Shown piece by piece: positions 11,516 through 24,813 of a stretch of DNA of 24,813 nucleotides (position 1 is its first letter; every line of letters begins with the position of its first letter). The notes under the pieces were generated by a model that worked only from the letters and a program-made list of their open reading frames with translations, had not been told where the DNA came from and ran no database searches. The stretch is from a virus: the IMG/VR virus record IMGVR_UViG_3300024221_000060, positions 1 through 24,813 of that record. One strand, given 5' to 3'. Both the position numbers and the translations under genes were made by a program.

Positions 11516-12592
11516 ATGCTTGGATTTTCGCCTCTAGCCTCTGCGCCTTTAGCCTCTGCGCCTCTGGCTGATGATGGGGCGGTTATCGTCTACCCCATAA
11601 ATGCTGATGGCATTGTCACGGGTCAAGCTGTTGTTGATAGTTCTACTGTAGCTCAGGAACACGGCCTTACAGCCGATGGCTTGACGACAGGGTTACCAGT
11701 CGTTCCGTTGTCAACGCTTGTTCGGACACACATCCTACCGGCAAACAGCATTACAACCGGCCAACCTGTAGTGCCAGCTATCAGTGCTTCTGAAGAAGAG
11801 ACTTTCTCTGCTGACCCAACCACTACTGGTCAGCCTACAGTACAAGCCTCTGACCTACTGCAAGAGCATGAACTCTCACCAGTGGCAATTATTACAGGTC
11901 AACCAGTTGTCCCCGCAATCACAATGTCAGAGGACGAGACCTTTGCGGCTGATCCGATTTTGTCGGGCGCACCCGTCATTGCGACAGCCACAATCGAGCA
12001 AGATGAAAATCTAAACGGCGACAACATTGCGACGGGCAACGCTGTTGTTCCTGCGATTACAATGTCAGAGCGTGAAACGCTAAACGCTGACCCGATAACG
12101 GCTGACTTCCCAAGGGTCGGACAACCGACGATTGAGCAAGAGCATGACCTTGCGCCAGTGAGTATCGCAAGCGGCGCGCCTGTCATTTCTGCATCTGTCA
12201 TTGCGCAGGTGGAAGTTCTGACAGCGGCTAACATCACCACCCAGCCGCCCGTTGTTGGAAGCCCCACAGCGATTGTTGTCCATGTTTTGAGCGCCGATGA
12301 CATCACGACAGCCGCGCCCATTGTTGACGCCTCTACCATCGAGCAAGAACACGAGTTGCAGGCCGATAATGTTTTGGCTGGCGCACCTGTAATTCAGCCA
12401 TCTGTTATGGATGTCACGGTAATCCTCAGCGCAGACAGCATTGTGACAGGTGCGCCTGTGTTTGGGCCAGCATATGTCAATGGAAGCGCTAGAAGGTCGA
12501 TCAGCATTTCTGATCCTTCAAATAACGTCGCCCTAGTGAAGATTGGGCCAAATGCGTGTATTGTGACGCAGCAAGCAAACGAGGCGGCATAA
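11516..12592 (+). CDS. Repeat protein with thirteen 23-residue repeats
   Basis: The 358-residue protein has three parts. Residues 1-28 are hydrophobic and contain a short duplication (SPLASAPLASAPLAD). Residues 29-327 are thirteen consecutive units of exactly 23 residues, with consensus ADxIxTGxPVV then a variable middle and (T/S)IxQEHxL. Residues 328-358 form a tail (SISISDPSNNVALVKIG). Units 3 to 8 alternate between a VPAIxxSExETF/L type and an IEQEHxL type, a 46-residue higher-order period. No indels break the register. A regular beta-rich solenoid or fibre-like stack is likely (inference). I recall similar repeats in alphaproteobacterial prophages, without a known role. The location in the fibre region suggests a virion appendage. 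Starts directly after a TAA. Confidence 0.7.
   Translation: MLGFSPLASAPLASAPLADDGAVIVYPINADGIVTGQAVVDSSTVAQEHGLTADGLTTGLPVVPLSTLVRTHILPANSITTGQPVVPAISASEEETFSADPTTTGQPTVQASDLLQEHELSPVAIITGQPVVPAITMSEDETFAADPILSGAPVIATATIEQDENLNGDNIATGNAVVPAITMSERETLNADPITADFPRVGQPTIEQEHDLAPVSIASGAPVISASVIAQVEVLTAANITTQPPVVGSPTAIVVHVLSADDITTAAPIVDASTIEQEHELQADNVLAGAPVIQPSVMDVTVILSADSIVTGAPVFGPAYVNGSARRSISISDPSNNVALVKIGPNACIVTQQANEAA
11600..12496 (+). repeat. Thirteen tandem 69-bp coding repeats
   Basis: The DNA encodes thirteen 23-codon units in constant register. The protein-level pattern is much better conserved than the DNA, so the expansion is old or under protein-level selection. Units 3/5/7 and 4/6/8 are pairwise more alike, pointing to growth by duplication of a two-unit block. 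Confidence 0.75.
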
Positions 12593-16366: not shown

Positions 16367-16981
16367 CTAGTATGGAATTTGGTCATCACCGATGTCGGAA
16401 TTGTCCGGCATGGTCAGGTTCTTTTTTGCTGCGTTCTTAGCTGCGACGACATCAGCGTGCGCGGCTGTAGGCTTGGGCAAGTTTGACCAGCGGTCTTTCA
16501 GGTCATCCAAGCTGTCAGCCTGCGCGAGATATTCTGTGGCTTGCTTGATTGCCTGCGGGTCAACCTCGGGCGGCTTGGGCGCTTCGCGCTTCGGTGCAGC
16601 TTTTGATGCTGCGTTGCCGTCGTCATCTTCAGCGGCTATCCCGCAAAGGCTTTCTACGCCCACGCGTTTTGCGTAAGTTGTGGCAGATTTAAGGCCCTGC
16701 ATGTCATTTTTGGACACGATAAGCGGCACGTCGCAAAAGATGTGCGTATCACTCTCGCCGTGGCTCAGAGTGGTGCGCATCATGTTGGTGCCTTCTATGG
16801 GTACGATGCTGCTCCAAACCGAAACCCCGTTTTGGTTCAGGGCTGGTAGTGCGACCTGCATCACGTCCGCCAAGTCGGCGTATTTGCTGCGAAAGTGGGG
16901 GTTCACCGTCCCTTTGACCACAGGCCCCATCTCAGACTGCGCCGAAGCTAGTGCGGTGTATACGTTTTTGTGCTGTGTCAT
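16367..16981 (-). CDS. erf: ERF family single-strand annealing recombinase
   Basis: The 204-residue protein starts in ATGA overlap with the small gene upstream, with AGGAG nine bases before. Residues 1-125 form the ERF domain: NPHFRSKYADLADV (27-40), VALPALNQNGVSV, TTLSHGE, and LKSATTYAKRVGVESLCGIAAEDDDG. A linker rich in Ala/Lys/Pro follows, then a helical region (AIKQATEYLAQADSLDDLKDRW) that may help ring assembly. The last residues, SDIGDDQIPY, closely resemble the acidic, aromatic tip of SSB proteins; the phage SSB at 22332-22715 ends DDEIPF. ERF anneals complementary strands during RecA-independent recombination. Confidence 0.88.
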   Translation of the reverse strand: MTQHKNVYTALASAQSEMGPVVKGTVNPHFRSKYADLADVMQVALPALNQNGVSVWSSIVPIEGTNMMRTTLSHGESDTHIFCDVPLIVSKNDMQGLKSATTYAKRVGVESLCGIAAEDDDGNAASKAAPKREAPKPPEVDPQAIKQATEYLAQADSLDDLKDRWSNLPKPTAAHADVVAAKNAAKKNLTMPDNSDIGDDQIPY

Positions 16982-20115: not shown

Positions 20116-20582
20116 CACCGATGACAATCAGCAATGTTCACGAGCGCGGCTTCGCCTTCGCAGTGACAGACGAGGCAGAGCAAGCGTTTATCCCTTCGCA
20201 CACCCTATCGGGGCACGAACTGAAGGCTGGTGACAAAATCTCTGGCGTTCTTGTGCCAAACCCAAGCGACAAGTCTACCCACGGCACGCCTTGGCTCTGC
20301 GTTAAGATCGAGGGCGGCAATGTGGAGGAAAAGCCGGAGGTTCAAAGCATCGAGGTGCGTGACGCAGAGGTCTACGACGTCATCTCAGAGGGCATTTACG
20401 TCACGACATCGGAGATTGCAGAATTCCTTGAGATCGACGGCAAGACGGCTCTCAACAGCGCGATGCGGTTGTTCAACGCCGGCAAGATTGCCAAGGCCGA
20501 TGTTTACGCCAACGTAGGACAAGCGCGCCCATCGTTTGTGCTTTTCGCGGCTGACGCCAAACGCTTTCTGGAGGACGTGTGA
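20112..20582 (+). CDS. OB-fold plus winged-helix protein
   Basis: Start chosen at ATG 20112 (ATGA overlap, GGAG six bases before); ATGs at 20100 and 20121 are alternatives. The 156-residue protein has two parts. Residues about 5-66 look like a cold-shock/OB fold: HERGFAFAVTDEAEQAFIPS, HELKAGDKISGVLVPN, TPWLCVKIE. Residues about 85-150 look like a winged helix: VYDVISEGIYVTTSEIAEFL, then SAMRLFNAGKIAKADVY and PSFVLFA. Single-strand nucleic acid binding plus DNA-binding wing suggests a regulator or replication accessory factor. This is by fold-pattern recognition only. Confidence 0.58.
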   Translation: MTPMTISNVHERGFAFAVTDEAEQAFIPSHTLSGHELKAGDKISGVLVPNPSDKSTHGTPWLCVKIEGGNVEEKPEVQSIEVRDAEVYDVISEGIYVTTSEIAEFLEIDGKTALNSAMRLFNAGKIAKADVYANVGQARPSFVLFAADAKRFLEDV

Positions 20583-21301
20583 TGCAGTACACACCCGAAG
20601 CACAGCATAAGCTGAAAGAATACCTAGACACACATGACCTGCCAGCGGGCTTAGGCACAGAAGAAAGCGCTTGCTCCATTGCCGCAATCAACTTGGCAAT
20701 GACGGGCGAACTTACCGACGACATTCCGCCCTGTATGAGTGAAGTTTTAGGGAAGGTTATCATCGCCTTACAAGATGCCATGCCTGATAACATGCGCAAC
20801 AGTCGCAGATATAAAGAGTGGTTGCCTCATGCTGCTGGCACGGGCCGTGAGCGTGAGGAAGAACGACTTGCAGTATTGATGGATTGGCTGTGGGACACGG
20901 TGTTGCCGAAGCTACAGCCGATGGCAGACAAGTTAGGCTTTGGTCTTGAGTGGGCGGCTATGTGCCGTAAACGGACTGTTGCTGCTGCTGTTGCTGCTCG
21001 TGCTGCTGCTGATTATGCTGCTGTTGCTGCTGCTGTTGCTGCTCGTGCTGCTGCTTATGCTGCTCCTTATGCTGCTCGTGCTGCTGCTCGTGCTGCTGCT
21101 CGTGATGCTGCTGCTACTTATGCTGCTCGTGCTGCTGCTCGTGATGCTGCTGCTGCTTATGCTGCTGCTGCTGCTGCTTATGCTGCTGATGCTGCTGCTT
21201 ATGCTGCTCGTGCTGCTGCTACAGATAGCCCCACCTTCTGGCAGGACGTGGATACCATTGGCGTGCTGGAGCGTATGACTTTCTTGGGGGTAAAATCCTG
21301 A
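20582..21301 (+). CDS. Protein with alanine-rich repeat domain
   Basis: Start chosen at ATG 20582 (TGATG overlap). The 239-residue protein has an ordinary domain to about residue 133, including SRRYKEWLPHAAGTGREREEERLAVLMDWLWDTVLPKLQP. Then comes a low-complexity helix (about residues 133-213) of Ala interrupted by Tyr, Arg, Asp and Val, for example YAARAAARDAAAAYA. It ends with DSPTFWQDVDTIGVLERMTF, which returns to normal composition. The repeat is encoded almost only by GCT for Ala with CGT, TAT and GAT. The rigid, amphipathic helix may mediate oligomerisation. Similar Ala-repeat proteins exist in other phages; function unknown. Confidence 0.65.
   Translation: MQYTPEAQHKLKEYLDTHDLPAGLGTEESACSIAAINLAMTGELTDDIPPCMSEVLGKVIIALQDAMPDNMRNSRRYKEWLPHAAGTGREREEERLAVLMDWLWDTVLPKLQPMADKLGFGLEWAAMCRKRTVAAAVAARAAADYAAVAAAVAARAAAYAAPYAARAAARAAARDAAATYAARAAARDAAAAYAAAAAAYAADAAAYAARAAATDSPTFWQDVDTIGVLERMTFLGVKS
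20979..21222 (+). repeat. GCT trinucleotide-rich low-complexity repeat
   Basis: About 244 bases built from GCT triplets with interspersed CGT, TAT, GAT and GTT. Codon use differs sharply from the mixed GCA/GCC/GCG/GCT use elsewhere, which points to recent growth by slippage. The repeat stays in frame with the surrounding gene. Confidence 0.85.
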
Positions 21302-22034: not shown

Positions 22035-22339
22035 ACGCATACACCACGAAATGGCCCACCGCTGTAGAGGGTTCAATGGTAAGCGAACGTCAGCGCAAAG
22101 CAGCGCGCGACATCATCGACCACGTTGCGAGAAAGCACGGCGTTTCTGTGCGGGAAATTATGGACCGAAGCCGCTTACCTTCCATCGTCGCAGCACGCCA
22201 AGAGGCAATGCGCTTAGTTCACAGCACTGGCCTAAAGCTGGGGCAGGTAGGTCTAATCTTCAAACGGGACCACAGCACGGTCCTATCAAACATCCGCAGG
22301 GCAGAGGCCCGCATACAGAAAGGAACGAACAATGTTTAA
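22031..22339 (+). CDS. Stand-alone DnaA domain IV (DNA-binding) protein
   Basis: The 102-residue protein corresponds to the C-terminal domain of the replication initiator DnaA only. Residues about 24-95 read AARDIIDHVARKHGVSVREI, then RSRLPSIVAARQEAMRLVHS, then GLKLGQVGLIFKRDHSTVLSNIRR, including the DnaA signature RDHSTVL (79-85). The AAA+ ATPase domain and the N-terminal domains are absent. It could bind DnaA boxes to mark a phage origin, or compete with host DnaA. It lies in ATGA overlap with the basic protein and overlaps the ssb gene by 8 bases. Confidence 0.82.
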   Translation: MNAYTTKWPTAVEGSMVSERQRKAARDIIDHVARKHGVSVREIMDRSRLPSIVAARQEAMRLVHSTGLKLGQVGLIFKRDHSTVLSNIRRAEARIQKGTNNV

Positions 22340-22715
22340 TCTCATGGTAGCAGGCAACGTCGGCAAGGACGCCGTACTGCGCCGCACGCAATCAGGTGAG
22401 CCTGTATTGGGTTTTTCAGTGGCAGTCGATCAGGGCAAGGACAAGAACGGCACAAAGCGCGACAGCGTATGGGTTAGCTGCTCAGTCTGGGGCAAGCGCG
22501 CAGAAAGCCTTGAGCGCTACATCACAAAGGGCACCAAGATTGTCGTCACTGGCCGACCCGGCGTTGATGTCTACGAGGGCCGGGGTCAGCTTAAACTGTC
22601 TGTCAACGAACTGACGTTTATGGGCGGCGGCAGTGATGCTGGTCAAGGCGATGGTGGCCAGAGCCAAGGCGGCGGCTTTGGCGGCAATGACATGGACGAC
22701 GAAATTCCGTTCTGA
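22332..22715 (+). CDS. ssb: Single-stranded DNA-binding protein
   Basis: The 127-residue protein is short compared with bacterial SSB (about 160-180). The OB fold covers residues about 1-102: MFNLMVAGNVGKDAVLRRTQ, VWVSCSVWGKRAESLERYI, KGTKIVVTGRPGVDVYEGRGQLKLSVNELTF. A Gly/Gln-rich linker ends in the acidic tip MDDEIPF, which in SSB recruits partner proteins. AAAGGA lies before the ATG. It should coat phage single strands and cooperate with ERF. Confidence 0.92.
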   Translation: MFNLMVAGNVGKDAVLRRTQSGEPVLGFSVAVDQGKDKNGTKRDSVWVSCSVWGKRAESLERYITKGTKIVVTGRPGVDVYEGRGQLKLSVNELTFMGGGSDAGQGDGGQSQGGGFGGNDMDDEIPF

Positions 22716-22951
22716 TGAACCCGTGGCGCACAGGAGACCCGGTAGGGATGGGAGAGATATATCTGCCCGACGCCAAGTCTAGCGCCGCGTATGCCAAGGC
22801 TTGCCGGGTAGCACTGATCGACAGCGCCGCCCGGTACGCAATCAACCTACCGACGCTTCAACAGCGCCGAGACTACATCAACAAGCAGCCAGCCGCCTCG
22901 GTGGATGCGCTCAAGGCAAGGATTAGAGAACTATGGGAGAAACAAGAGTGA
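22715..22951 (+). CDS. Hypothetical protein (DUF7696-like)
   Basis: The 78-residue protein starts in TGATG overlap with ssb. It contains DPVGMGEIYLPDAKSSAAYA and RRDYINKQPAASVDALKARI, then ELW. The segment YAINLPTLQQRRDYI followed by a helix is a pattern I associate with a small phage family (possibly DUF7696); unverified. Its end overlaps the next gene by GTGA and carries the GGGAG of that gene. Confidence 0.6.
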   Translation: MNPWRTGDPVGMGEIYLPDAKSSAAYAKACRVALIDSAARYAINLPTLQQRRDYINKQPAASVDALKARIRELWEKQE

Positions 22952-23214
22952 GCAAGGAACTGACGGACAAGATGCGCGCCAAGCTGGCGGCGGGGTTTGC
23001 TGCTGGCGATCAGGCGGAACTGCTGGAAGCGGCGCGGCAAGACGCCAAGGAAGCCGAGGCATATGCGGCGGAACTAGAGGCCAAGCTGGCGAAGGCGGTG
23101 GAGACTTTGGAGAAGCTGGCACGGCTTGGCAACGGCGACCGTTACGGCAACAGCGATGGCAACATGATTGCTCGCGCCACCCTCGCGATACTGAAAGGAG
23201 AGACAGATGAGTGA
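22948..23214 (+). CDS. Helical protein with shared AKLAKA module
   Basis: Start chosen at GTG 22948, overlapping the upstream TGA as GTGA with GGGAG eight bases before; ATG 22933 is an alternative. The 88-residue protein is Ala/Glu-rich and coiled-coil-like (AAELEAKLAKAVETLEKLAR). The EAKLAKA segment and the C-terminal LKGETDE are shared with neighbours at 23207 and 23936. The 3' end carries the AAAGGAG of the next gene within a repeated junction (23182-23213). Function unknown. Confidence 0.55.
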   Translation: MSKELTDKMRAKLAAGFAAGDQAELLEAARQDAKEAEAYAAELEAKLAKAVETLEKLARLGNGDRYGNSDGNMIARATLAILKGETDE

Positions 23215-23515
23215 GGATCTGACATGCACGAACTGCGGTGAATACGTTGGCTCACCGATAGCCGACCGCATAGAGGAGCTAGAGGCACAACAACAAAAGA
23301 CCTATCAAGAGCTGCTGAAGATTACGAAGATACACGATGAGGTGGAGGCCAAGCTGGCGAAGGCGGAGGAGTTGGTTAAAGTCGCATTTAACGAAGGCTT
23401 CTGCGAGGGCATGGATGAAGTGCAGCGGCAAAGAGGCGGAAAGAATTGGTATGAAAGTCGCTCCCGCCAGCGCCTCGCAGAACTAAAAGGAGAGATTGAT
23501 GAGGATGAAATCTGA
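23207..23515 (+). CDS. Small protein with CxxC pair and shared helical module
   Basis: The 102-residue protein begins MSEDLTCTNCGEYVGSPIAD, with Cys7-x-x-Cys10 suggesting half of a zinc ribbon. A helical middle contains EVEAKLAKAEELV and the C-terminus RLAELKGEIDEDEI. The CxxC start and the module resemble the gene at 23936. AAAGGAG lies in the upstream junction repeat. Function unknown. Confidence 0.58.
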   Translation: MSEDLTCTNCGEYVGSPIADRIEELEAQQQKTYQELLKITKIHDEVEAKLAKAEELVKVAFNEGFCEGMDEVQRQRGGKNWYESRSRQRLAELKGEIDEDEI

Positions 23516-23684
23516 CTTCGAGATTCTTATGGACCTTCGAAAAGAGGTTAGTCGTTTGACAGCTTTTCTGGTGCTTGTAAGTTTCGTCAATATGGCGATG
23601 GCTTTTATGTGGGCTGGTCTTGGAGACCGTGTCCTTAAATTAGAGGCATCTATCGCAGAACTAAAAGGAGAGATTGATGACTAA
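23499..23684 (+). CDS. Small membrane protein with shared C-terminal tag
   Basis: Start chosen at ATG 23499 after AAAAGGAGAG. The 61-residue protein has a helical start (DFEILMDLRKEVSRL), one hydrophobic segment (TAFLVLVSFVNMAMAFMWAG, about residues 20-40) and a C-terminus LEASIAELKGEIDD, the same tag as its neighbours. A single membrane helix in an early small gene suggests a host-takeover or superinfection-type function (inference). Confidence 0.55.
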   Translation: MRMKSDFEILMDLRKEVSRLTAFLVLVSFVNMAMAFMWAGLGDRVLKLEASIAELKGEIDD

Positions 23685-23922
23685 AGGCGAATATAGAGTA
23701 GGGGTCAATTTCAATCCCAGCAACGACGACATGGTGAGCCAGATCAAGCGCAAAGCCGCTGATCTGATTGACTTGATTCAAATGGTGCCAACCCCTGAGC
23801 CGGCGTCCCTTGACCCGCAGTTTGCCGAGATCAAGCGCCTTAAAGCACTGGCGCAGACCGAGATTGAAAGCGCAGCCATGTGGGCAGTAAAGGCCGTTAC
23901 AAAGCCACCCTCGCAGAACTGA
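23677..23922 (+). CDS. Hypothetical protein, possibly Acb2-like helical
   Basis: Start chosen at ATG 23677 after AAAAGGAG. The 81-residue protein begins MTKGEYRVGVNFNPSNDDMV. It has two helices, SQIKRKAADLIDLIQM and FAEIKRLKALAQTEIESAAMWAVKAVTKP, the second ending in an AAMWAVKAVT(K) motif. The RVG-x-x-FNPS(ND) start with this helix pair recalls the small anti-CBASS Acb2/Tad1-type phage proteins that sequester cyclic nucleotides. I cannot verify that from sequence memory alone. The end runs into a junction repeat read in another frame. Confidence 0.55.
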   Translation: MTKGEYRVGVNFNPSNDDMVSQIKRKAADLIDLIQMVPTPEPASLDPQFAEIKRLKALAQTEIESAAMWAVKAVTKPPSQN

Positions 23923-23935
23923 AAGGAGAGGCGGA

Positions 23936-24244
23936 ATGAGTGACCCACGATGCGCCAAATGCGGACATCCTCGCAGCAACCACCCCTATCGACACCCGTT
24001 CGTTGGGTCATCCAAGGACGATACTATCGAGGAATTAGAGGCCGACCTACGCAAGATGGCGCTGGATTTTATAGCCGCAGACGGACAGGCAGCAGAGGCG
24101 TATCAGGCCAAGCTGGCGAAAGCGGAGGGCTTATTGGTTGATGCAATGGTTCAGCTAGAAAACGGCAAGATCAAGACGCGCCGCAATTGTGCTTATCTAA
24201 TTGGGAAATTTCTTGCAGAACTGAAAGGAGAAACAGATGAGTAA
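23936..24244 (+). CDS. Small protein with CxxC start and shared helical module
   Basis: The 102-residue protein begins MSDPRCAKCGHPRSNHPYRH: Cys6-x-x-Cys9 followed by two His, a plausible zinc site. The middle has TIEELEADLRKMALDF and EAYQAKLAKAEGLL, and it ends FLAELKGETDE. It shares the AKLAKAE and LAELKGETDE modules with the genes at 22948 and 23207. AAAGGAG lies upstream in the junction repeat. Function unknown. Confidence 0.58.
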   Translation: MSDPRCAKCGHPRSNHPYRHPFVGSSKDDTIEELEADLRKMALDFIAADGQAAEAYQAKLAKAEGLLVDAMVQLENGKIKTRRNCAYLIGKFLAELKGETDE

Positions 24245-24323
24245 TTTTCAAATTTTTATCGTGTCCATTCTATCCGGAACGGCAGCGGGCGTGCTTGCCG
24301 CGTTCTTACAGCACATCAACTGA
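24237..24323 (+). CDS. Very small membrane protein (28 aa)
   Basis: ATG 24237 follows GAAAGGAG in a junction repeat and overlaps the upstream stop by eight bases. The 28-residue frame begins MSNFQIFIVSILSGTAAGVL and is one hydrophobic helix with a short polar end (QHIN). The excellent ribosome binding site makes translation likely. Such peptides could act in membranes; function unknown. Confidence 0.5.
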   Translation: MSNFQIFIVSILSGTAAGVLAAFLQHIN

Positions 24324-24335
24324 AGGGAAAGACAG

Positions 24336-24689
24336 ATGAGTGATGGAAGACCTAAATGGGTACACACGGAATTGTCTGAAAGTAAATTCAGAAAACTGCG
24401 TGGGTTTGGGGCATTTATTTCCCTCGAAGTAAAGAGAGAGATGACTAGTGCAGATACATGCCGTGATTGGACTGAGGCTAAAAACGGAAACGGGAAGGTT
24501 ATCACTCTCCCTCAAGGATGGAGCAAGGTCCTAAACTTTGCTGGCGAGTACTCAGGGTGGGGTCTTCTTGAGTTCAATCACTTAGGTAAAAGCATGGCAG
24601 ACACCGTAAAGAAAATTGACGTCTGGGAAGAGTCAAACTCTTTGGAGAGGGCTGAATATGAACGCCTTAAGAAGAAGTTTGAAGGATGA
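24336..24689 (+). CDS. Hypothetical protein
   Basis: The 117-residue protein begins MSDGRPKWVHTELSESKFRK. The ATG lies in a partial junction sequence (GAAAGACAGATGAGTG-like, without the GCAGAACT half). It has mixed composition with two Cys-poor beta-like stretches (FGAFISLEVKREM; KVITLPQGWSKVLNFAGEYSGWG) and a helical, charged end (SLERAEYERLKKKFEG). It looks more like an independent protein than the module-sharing neighbours. No family recognised. Confidence 0.52.
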   Translation: MSDGRPKWVHTELSESKFRKLRGFGAFISLEVKREMTSADTCRDWTEAKNGNGKVITLPQGWSKVLNFAGEYSGWGLLEFNHLGKSMADTVKKIDVWEESNSLERAEYERLKKKFEG

Positions 24690-24719
24690 CCACCCTAGCA
24701 GAACTGAAAGGAGAACAAG

Positions 24720-24813
24720 ATGGGTGAAGCACCAGAGCGAATTTATCTAGACGGGGATGTTGAAGCCGGTGACGGAATGTTCCCTCGATGCTTTGAGAGC
24801 CCGAAATATGCCA
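24720..24813 (+). CDS. Start of a hypothetical gene, cut by the window end
   Basis: ATG 24720 follows GAAAGGAG in the sixth junction repeat. Thirty-one residues are visible (MGEAPERIYLDGDVEAGDGM onward, acidic). The frame is open to the last base. No family can be assigned from this fragment. Confidence 0.5.
   Translation, partial: MGEAPERIYLDGDVEAGDGMFPRCFESPKYA

Follow-up and report, generated by a model that had tools for sequence, protein, structure and literature searches.

At the end of a roseophage-like contig, seven copies of a ~30-bp element with the core GCAGAACTGAAAGGAGA occupy consecutive gene junctions within the last 1.6 kb. This element, which we call a seam, combines a position at gene junctions, a Shine-Dalgarno sequence and a stop/start overlap with conservation at the nucleotide level; gene shuffling is localized at the junctions that carry it, and one recent difference between sister phages is bounded by a repeat. 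We propose that the seam is probably a portable gene-junction module that couples the translation of adjacent genes and, through the homology common to its copies, allows small accessory genes to be swapped, plausibly via the Erf recombinase.

Organization of the seam array

The window (the whole stretch analyzed, positions 1 to 24,813 of IMG/VR record IMGVR_UViG_3300024221_000060) has its nearest named relatives in Roseobacter phages CRP-821, CRP-822, CRP-823, and CRP-831 (tail region, 76-78% identity), and its single-strand DNA-binding protein (SSB) gene is similar to that of Sulfitobacter phage NYA-2014a. Two repeat-rich proteins lie upstream: one at 20579-21301 with a long Ala/Tyr-rich repeat (YAARAAARDAAA...) and no Pfam match, and an ORF at 11516-12592 with many imperfect repeats (TGQPVVPAI...), which is probably structural. 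From 22.9 kb to the window end, very small overlapping plus-strand genes follow one another in series, and every junction from 23.18 kb onward holds one seam copy. The genes concerned, and one internal repeat, are as follows.

16367..16981, minus strand: Erf-family single-strand annealing recombinase (PF04404, E 1.2e-17)
22332..22715, plus strand: SSB, upstream of the array
22948..23214, plus strand: small coiled-coil-type ORF (start GTG 22948 or ATG 22933), whose halves in sister contig L118 are parts of separate genes, with 464 bp more between them
23070..23098, plus strand: 29-bp internal coding repeat (ELEAKLAKA), site of the 464-bp L118 difference; related copies at 23345-23371 and 24104-24130
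23207..23515, plus strand: small ORF with CxxC head, coiled-coil repeat, and LAELKGE tail
23499..23684, plus strand: small ORF with a hydrophobic segment and the same LAELKGE-type tail, without the coiled-coil repeat
23677..23922, plus strand: Acb2/Tad1 hairpin-domain gene (anti-CBASS/anti-Thoeris sponge family; PF24729, E 6e-13), terminating within seam 4
23936..24244, plus strand: small ORF with CxxC head, coiled-coil repeat, and LAELKGE tail
24237..24323, plus strand: hydrophobic ORF of 28 aa, flanked by seams 5 and 7
24336..24689, plus strand: 117-aa ORF with no assigned function, between seams 7 and 6
24720..24813, plus strand: 5′ part of the gene for MGEAPERIYLD..., which in L118 has 96 aa and ends in a further seam

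The seam copies themselves are located as follows.

23177..23214, plus strand: copy 1, core 23185-23200 (3 mismatches); encodes ATLAILKGETDE and a stop, Shine-Dalgarno, ATGAGTGA stop/start overlap
23469..23506, plus strand: copy 2, core 23477-23492; encodes LAELKGEIDEDEI; next ATG 23499 within the upstream ORF
23647..23684, plus strand: copy 3, core 23655-23670; encodes IAELKGEIDD and a stop; start ATG 23677
23905..23942, plus strand: copy 4, core 23913-23928; frame +1; an internal TGA ends the upstream ORF (KPPSQN, stop); next ATG 23936
24207..24244, plus strand: copy 5, core 24215-24230; encodes LAELKGETDE and a stop; start ATG 24237
24314..24343, plus strand: copy 7, diverged; 24/30 to the 30-mer; frame +1; the 28-aa ORF terminates inside (...QHIN, stop); start ATG 24336
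24690..24727, plus strand: copy 6, core 24698-24713; after the upstream stop, in mini-ORF 24686-24727; start ATG 24720

Six of these copies match the core with 0-3 mismatches (at 23185, with three, and at 23477, 23655, 23913, 24215, and 24698). An earlier note on this DNA had counted six copies at successive boundaries; all six are present, and the count was too low, the diverged seventh at 24314-24343 sharing 24/30 bases with the 30-mer where the top unrelated window site shares 19/30. A scan of all 24.8 kb returned no seam copy outside the terminal array, to which the core is confined save for a single minus-strand match at position 12177 with three mismatches. Copies 1, 2, 3, and 5 encode an LAELKGE-type C-terminus of the upstream protein, as had been claimed. 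The other reading frame described for the fourth copy is likewise confirmed, and is shared by copy 7; in both, the upstream ORF ends inside the element. The sixth copy had been called untranslated: it does lie 3′ of the upstream stop, but inside a 13-codon mini-ORF (MTTLAELKGEQDG and a stop) that keeps the peptide frame of the coding copies. Its ATG at 24686 overlaps the upstream stop (ATGA) and its own end overlaps the next start, so that this ORF (24686-24727) bridges two genes with stop/start overlaps at both ends and is a possible coupling bridge.

A seam consists of up to ~15 variable bases (CCCGCACCACCCTC), GCAGAACTGAAAGGAGA, a spacer that is typically 5-6 bases long, and the ATG, with ATGAGTGA as the commonest form, and unites in one place the end of an ORF, an extended Shine-Dalgarno sequence (GAAAGGAG), and the stop/start overlap. 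GAAAGGAG matches the anti-Shine-Dalgarno sequence of 16S rRNA, and every copy has a ribosome-binding site of its own, as had been proposed. Because copies were chosen by their core, only the flanks give an unbiased measure of conservation; across 127 copies, the variable bases are mostly 40-60% conserved per position. Stop and start overlap at 123 of 140 assignable junctions (+5, +1, -2, or +8), in the forms ATGAGTGA, ATGA, or TGATG. The upstream ORF reads the seam in the LAELKGE peptide frame at 132 of the same 140 junctions, in frame +1 at seven, and in frame +2 at one. Seams form no stable hairpin (fold z-scores -0.7 to 1.6) and carry no terminator-like site on their coding strand, a search for sigma-70-type promoters returned none in 22300-24813, and the window contains no known RNA family. 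Thus, no conserved RNA fold, promoter, or terminator explains the conservation of the bases 5′ of the Shine-Dalgarno sequence.

Distribution of the seam and exchange of genes around it

The exact 16-mer occurs in more than 100 IMG/VR stretches among the matches listed, and most of these sites are gene junctions. Across 16 whole records, a total of 60 seam matches was found compared to three for a reversed control pattern; no record has matches on both strands, and most records have them in one cluster. In roseophage SIO1, a podovirus, gp13 is flanked by a seam copy on either side, two in all; the region in which SIO1 resembles the window starts at 24689, one base before seam 6, and extends into the next gene. 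AT-rich contigs (31-42% G+C; L028, L011, L071, L094, L099, and L119) have arrays of their own with (TCC/GCA)GAACTGAAAGGAGA and different genes. Their parallel seam is accompanied by xELKGE tails and ELEKIKAEIE coils, and may reflect either independent origin or very old sharing. Among 84,980 bacterial species, the 24-mer has no match and the 20-mer has two (Paenibacillus and a Nomurabacteria MAG; ~0.5 expected, as estimated from random sequence), a near-absence that marks the element as essentially viral. Matches of the consensus in Microbacterium (25 nt, 88%, E about 9) were rejected as noise.

Genes flanked by seams are diverse, with 232 of them falling into 161 families by sequence. The largest (24 members) comprises coiled-coil-type proteins of the form MSDDLVKRLR...ARTTLAELKGE, while other genes that carry or border seams encode an N6/N4 DNA methylase, ThyX, a DnaA-like HTH protein, and Acb2.

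To compare the two sides of a junction, we took junction pairs from different contigs in which one flank aligns over 140 nt or more with an identity of 95% or higher. The other flank lacks similarity in 10/20 seam pairs, but in 1/19 pairs at other tandem junctions and in 0/18 at mid-gene points (seams versus other junctions, Fisher p 0.003, a value weakened by the choice of strict tests after the loose results). Some of the concordant seam pairs match the window phage with its sister L118. At 85% over 100 nt, discordance is 16/29 for seams, 6/27 for other junctions, and 6/34 for mid-gene points; under the loose thresholds of the first flank test the controls were also highly discordant (0.73 and 0.55), and the strict thresholds were adopted instead. 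Window seam 1 and L084, for example, have the downstream gene in common (149/149 aligned bases identical) and unrelated upstream genes, while L061, L093, and L081 are identical on the upstream flank and then each continue into a different gene.

Homology breakpoints point the same way. Of 173 between-contig breakpoints, 33 (19%) have a seam on both sequences compared to 3.2% of interior aligned points, a 5.9-fold excess in a sample that is non-random, since the contigs were gathered via the seam, and in which many pairs share ancestry. Ordinary SD-ATG starts account for 12% of breakpoints versus 7% (1.7-fold), with no excess near arrays, and the internal coding repeats EAKLAKA and RIEELEA are enriched 7.2-fold and 6.2-fold. 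The excess depends on the null chosen: the interior-point null, like the strict flank test adopted once looser results had been seen, separates seams, whereas under a local-shift null seams and other SD starts are similarly enriched, and with looser settings ordinary junctions become breakpoint-like too. The flank test therefore has to be weighed alongside. By our working criterion for a shuffling junction, breakpoints fall at seams more often than at control sites, although the looser null did not separate the two. The earlier note had read the junctions as recombination seams. Exchange at seams does exceed that at controls, which supports gene shuffling there; the seam at gene ends is not the sole joint, given the equal enrichment of internal repeats, and we infer that the seam may promote the exchange and not only mark it. 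Within L112, which has many internal self-similar stretches, 24 within-contig breakpoints were also seen.

The same pattern could arise, possibly if doubtfully, from a signal for translation only, in which the seam serves short overlapping genes as an effective site for ribosome binding and termination-reinitiation, shuffling is general to junctions, and the seam is a passenger. Homology would likewise seem to end at the seam if shuffling fell anywhere in the junction and the seam were retained for translation. The Shine-Dalgarno sequence is indeed among the best conserved parts of the seam, 123/140 junctions overlap, a near-identical core serves a different gene set in the AT-rich contigs, and the start-associated sequences of cluster K mycobacteriophages have been proposed to act in translation initiation (PMC3203893). 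However, GCAGAAC lies outside the Shine-Dalgarno sequence yet is kept at synonymous positions, and both flank discordance and breakpoints are more frequent at seams than at other junctions. A translation signal and a role in exchange may also operate together.

Sister contig L118, 99.8% and 99.9% identical to the window over 2.5 and 1.7 kb, differs from it by 464 bp (L118 2470-2980). Both ends of the difference fall in a perfect 29-bp repeat that lies within two coding sequences; as a result, either the first small gene of the window arose by fusion of two L118 genes or these two arose by its splitting. This is direct evidence of repeat-bounded recombination adjoining the array, at an internal repeat rather than a seam, and the sole clean recent event beside it. 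Three window genes and many relatives share the RIEELEA/EAKLAKA repeats plus the tail. These genes, the location of the 464-bp event in such a repeat, and the common frame of 132/140 copies would fit tandem paralogs, in which coiled-coil genes were duplicated, the repeats are their conserved ends, and unequal recombination of the ordinary kind made the mosaic. We regard this as rather unlikely: it is already weakened by the non-paralogous genes that seams border (Acb2, read in a different frame, the 28-aa and 117-aa ORFs, DNA methylase, ThyX, and the DnaA-like protein), and the 161 families also speak against it.

Conservation of DNA or of peptide

The earlier note had inferred conservation of the DNA independent of frame. 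In three exhaustive degenerate IMG/VR scans that left the codons for Ala-Glu-Leu unconstrained, the codons 5′ of the Shine-Dalgarno sequence are mostly GCA-GAA-CTG. Synonymous positions in coding copies are strongly biased in the ATGAGTGA context, with GCA GAA in 33/33 sites and CTG in 30/33; with a spacing of 4 and G, GCAGAACTG occurs in 35/46 sites, and with a spacing of 5 in 39/77. The spacing-5 set includes an unrelated protein family (AAALAID-AELKGEGYDP), in which the residues are internal and codon choice is freer. This codon choice indicates that nucleotides outside the Shine-Dalgarno sequence are kept, or homogenized via exchange or recent descent. Conservation at the DNA level is therefore upheld, while frame independence is weaker, being mainly a feature of this window given 132/140 junctions in the peptide frame.

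That preponderance of one frame is what would be expected if the conserved unit were the peptide LAELKGE-D/E, with a function at the C-terminus, for example as a tag for degradation or localization. Such a function is very improbable as the explanation: the codons are constrained beyond the amino acids, two copies (4 and 7) use a different frame, copy 6 lies beyond a stop, and Acb2 relatives end without an LAELKGE-type peptide. Chance, or a codon-bias artifact of overlapping short genes where Shine-Dalgarno bases are bound to recur, is refuted by seven core matches (six array copies and the minus-strand hit) against a mean of 0.26 in dinucleotide shuffles and by long identical stretches spanning the seam that are common to different phages.

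The Acb2/Tad1 gene ending in seam 4 (PF24729, 49.2 bits versus a cut-off of 27) is a candidate anti-CBASS/anti-Thoeris sponge, for which family membership predicts cyclic-nucleotide binding and CBASS inhibition. It has 454 relatives in IMG/VR. Among the best 80 of these, apart from the window phage and sister copies, L219 has a one-mismatch seam upstream, L207 ends, also in frame +1, in a seam-like sequence with four mismatches, L263 and L268 show a resemblance with three mismatches and again a +1 ending, and the remainder lack a clear seam. Since the family usually ends in VKAATKP plus a few variable residues, mostly without a seam, the seam seems to be an end that this gene acquired. For the 117-aa and hydrophobic genes, all relatives that turned up belong to the same phage.

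A proposed junction module and its relation to known systems

In the module that we favor, a single stretch of ~30-45 bp would supply the last upstream codons, the extended Shine-Dalgarno sequence (GAAAGGAG), and the stop/start overlap, so that each array gene would be translationally coupled to the next; coupling in vivo is a prediction from this arrangement. Near-identical DNA at the ends of many small genes provides short homology at every junction, where seam-bounded genes would be gained, lost, and swapped with the translation signal preserved. The RIEELEA and EAKLAKA coding repeats would be extra joints that swap heads and tails. Erf-driven annealing on the common seam sequence would make the exchanges, and we infer Erf to be the candidate agent. 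Both Erf and SSB are encoded in the window, and the Erf gene belongs to the ERF superfamily (PF04404 as above; phrog_155, E 7.7e-32). Recombinases of the Rad52-like group, Erf among them, act on homology that is short and diverged (PMC3945230), exchange of this kind is described for Red-beta, RecT, or Erf (PMC3945230; PMC2327257), and the minimum cited for Red-beta, ~30 bp (PMC3945230), is near the length shared between seams. In Rad52-like mosaicism the homology is incidental, whereas in these phages it comes from an element repeated at the junctions.

Lambdoid phages also have short conserved sequences where mosaic genes meet (boundary or linker sequences), which have been proposed as guides for exchange. 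The seam differs from these in its phages and in the repetition of one sequence over many consecutive junctions of one genome. Repeated PeSL cassettes are said to have been described by Arbiol in 2010 and Comeau in 2014. In T4-type phages, they have been proposed to shuffle small early genes, and they consist of an early promoter and a stem-loop (PMC4503421), unlike the translational signal of the seam; seams showed neither sigma-70-type sites in 22300-24813 nor a stem-loop terminator (z -0.7 to 1.6). Start-associated sequences (SAS/ESAS) of cluster K mycobacteriophages (PMC3203893), with similar motifs in Microbacterium cluster EF phages (PMC7302621), are closer in form. They are short over-conserved repeats at the ribosome-binding position, in one orientation and in the non-structural region, attached to genes of different families and sometimes holding the upstream stop codon; the seam, too, lies a few bases from starts, in one orientation, among non-structural genes. 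ESAS add a linked 17-bp imperfect inverted repeat at about half of the sites (PMC3203893). The SAS/ESAS consensus differs from the seam (GGGATAGGAGCCC / GGGAAAGGACCCC), and the 13-bp SAS consensus GGGATAGGAGCCC has no match in the window with up to two mismatches; in turn, the seam usually encodes the upstream C-terminus and marks gene exchange. The seam therefore resembles SAS/ESAS and PeSL in how it works and departs from what defines them, the consensus of the one and the promoter plus stem-loop of the other. A search with relevant terms of the literature on alphaproteobacterial phages and new roseophages returned no mention of the seam repeat.

There is debate over whether phage mosaicism originates at short conserved sequences on gene boundaries or from joining at random with later selection (PMC3945230). 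One defined sequence at consecutive junctions of many marine phages, with an excess of exchange over controls, makes this question testable through recoding. Seams are also a route to finding small, rapidly exchanged phage genes, including the anti-CBASS candidate. More tentatively, it is conceivable that unrelated roseophages keep one seam as a shared junction code, by which any seam-bounded gene could be annealed into any array and translated at once. If true, such a code would be a homology-based counterpart of integron-like capture, turning over anti-defense genes such as Acb2.
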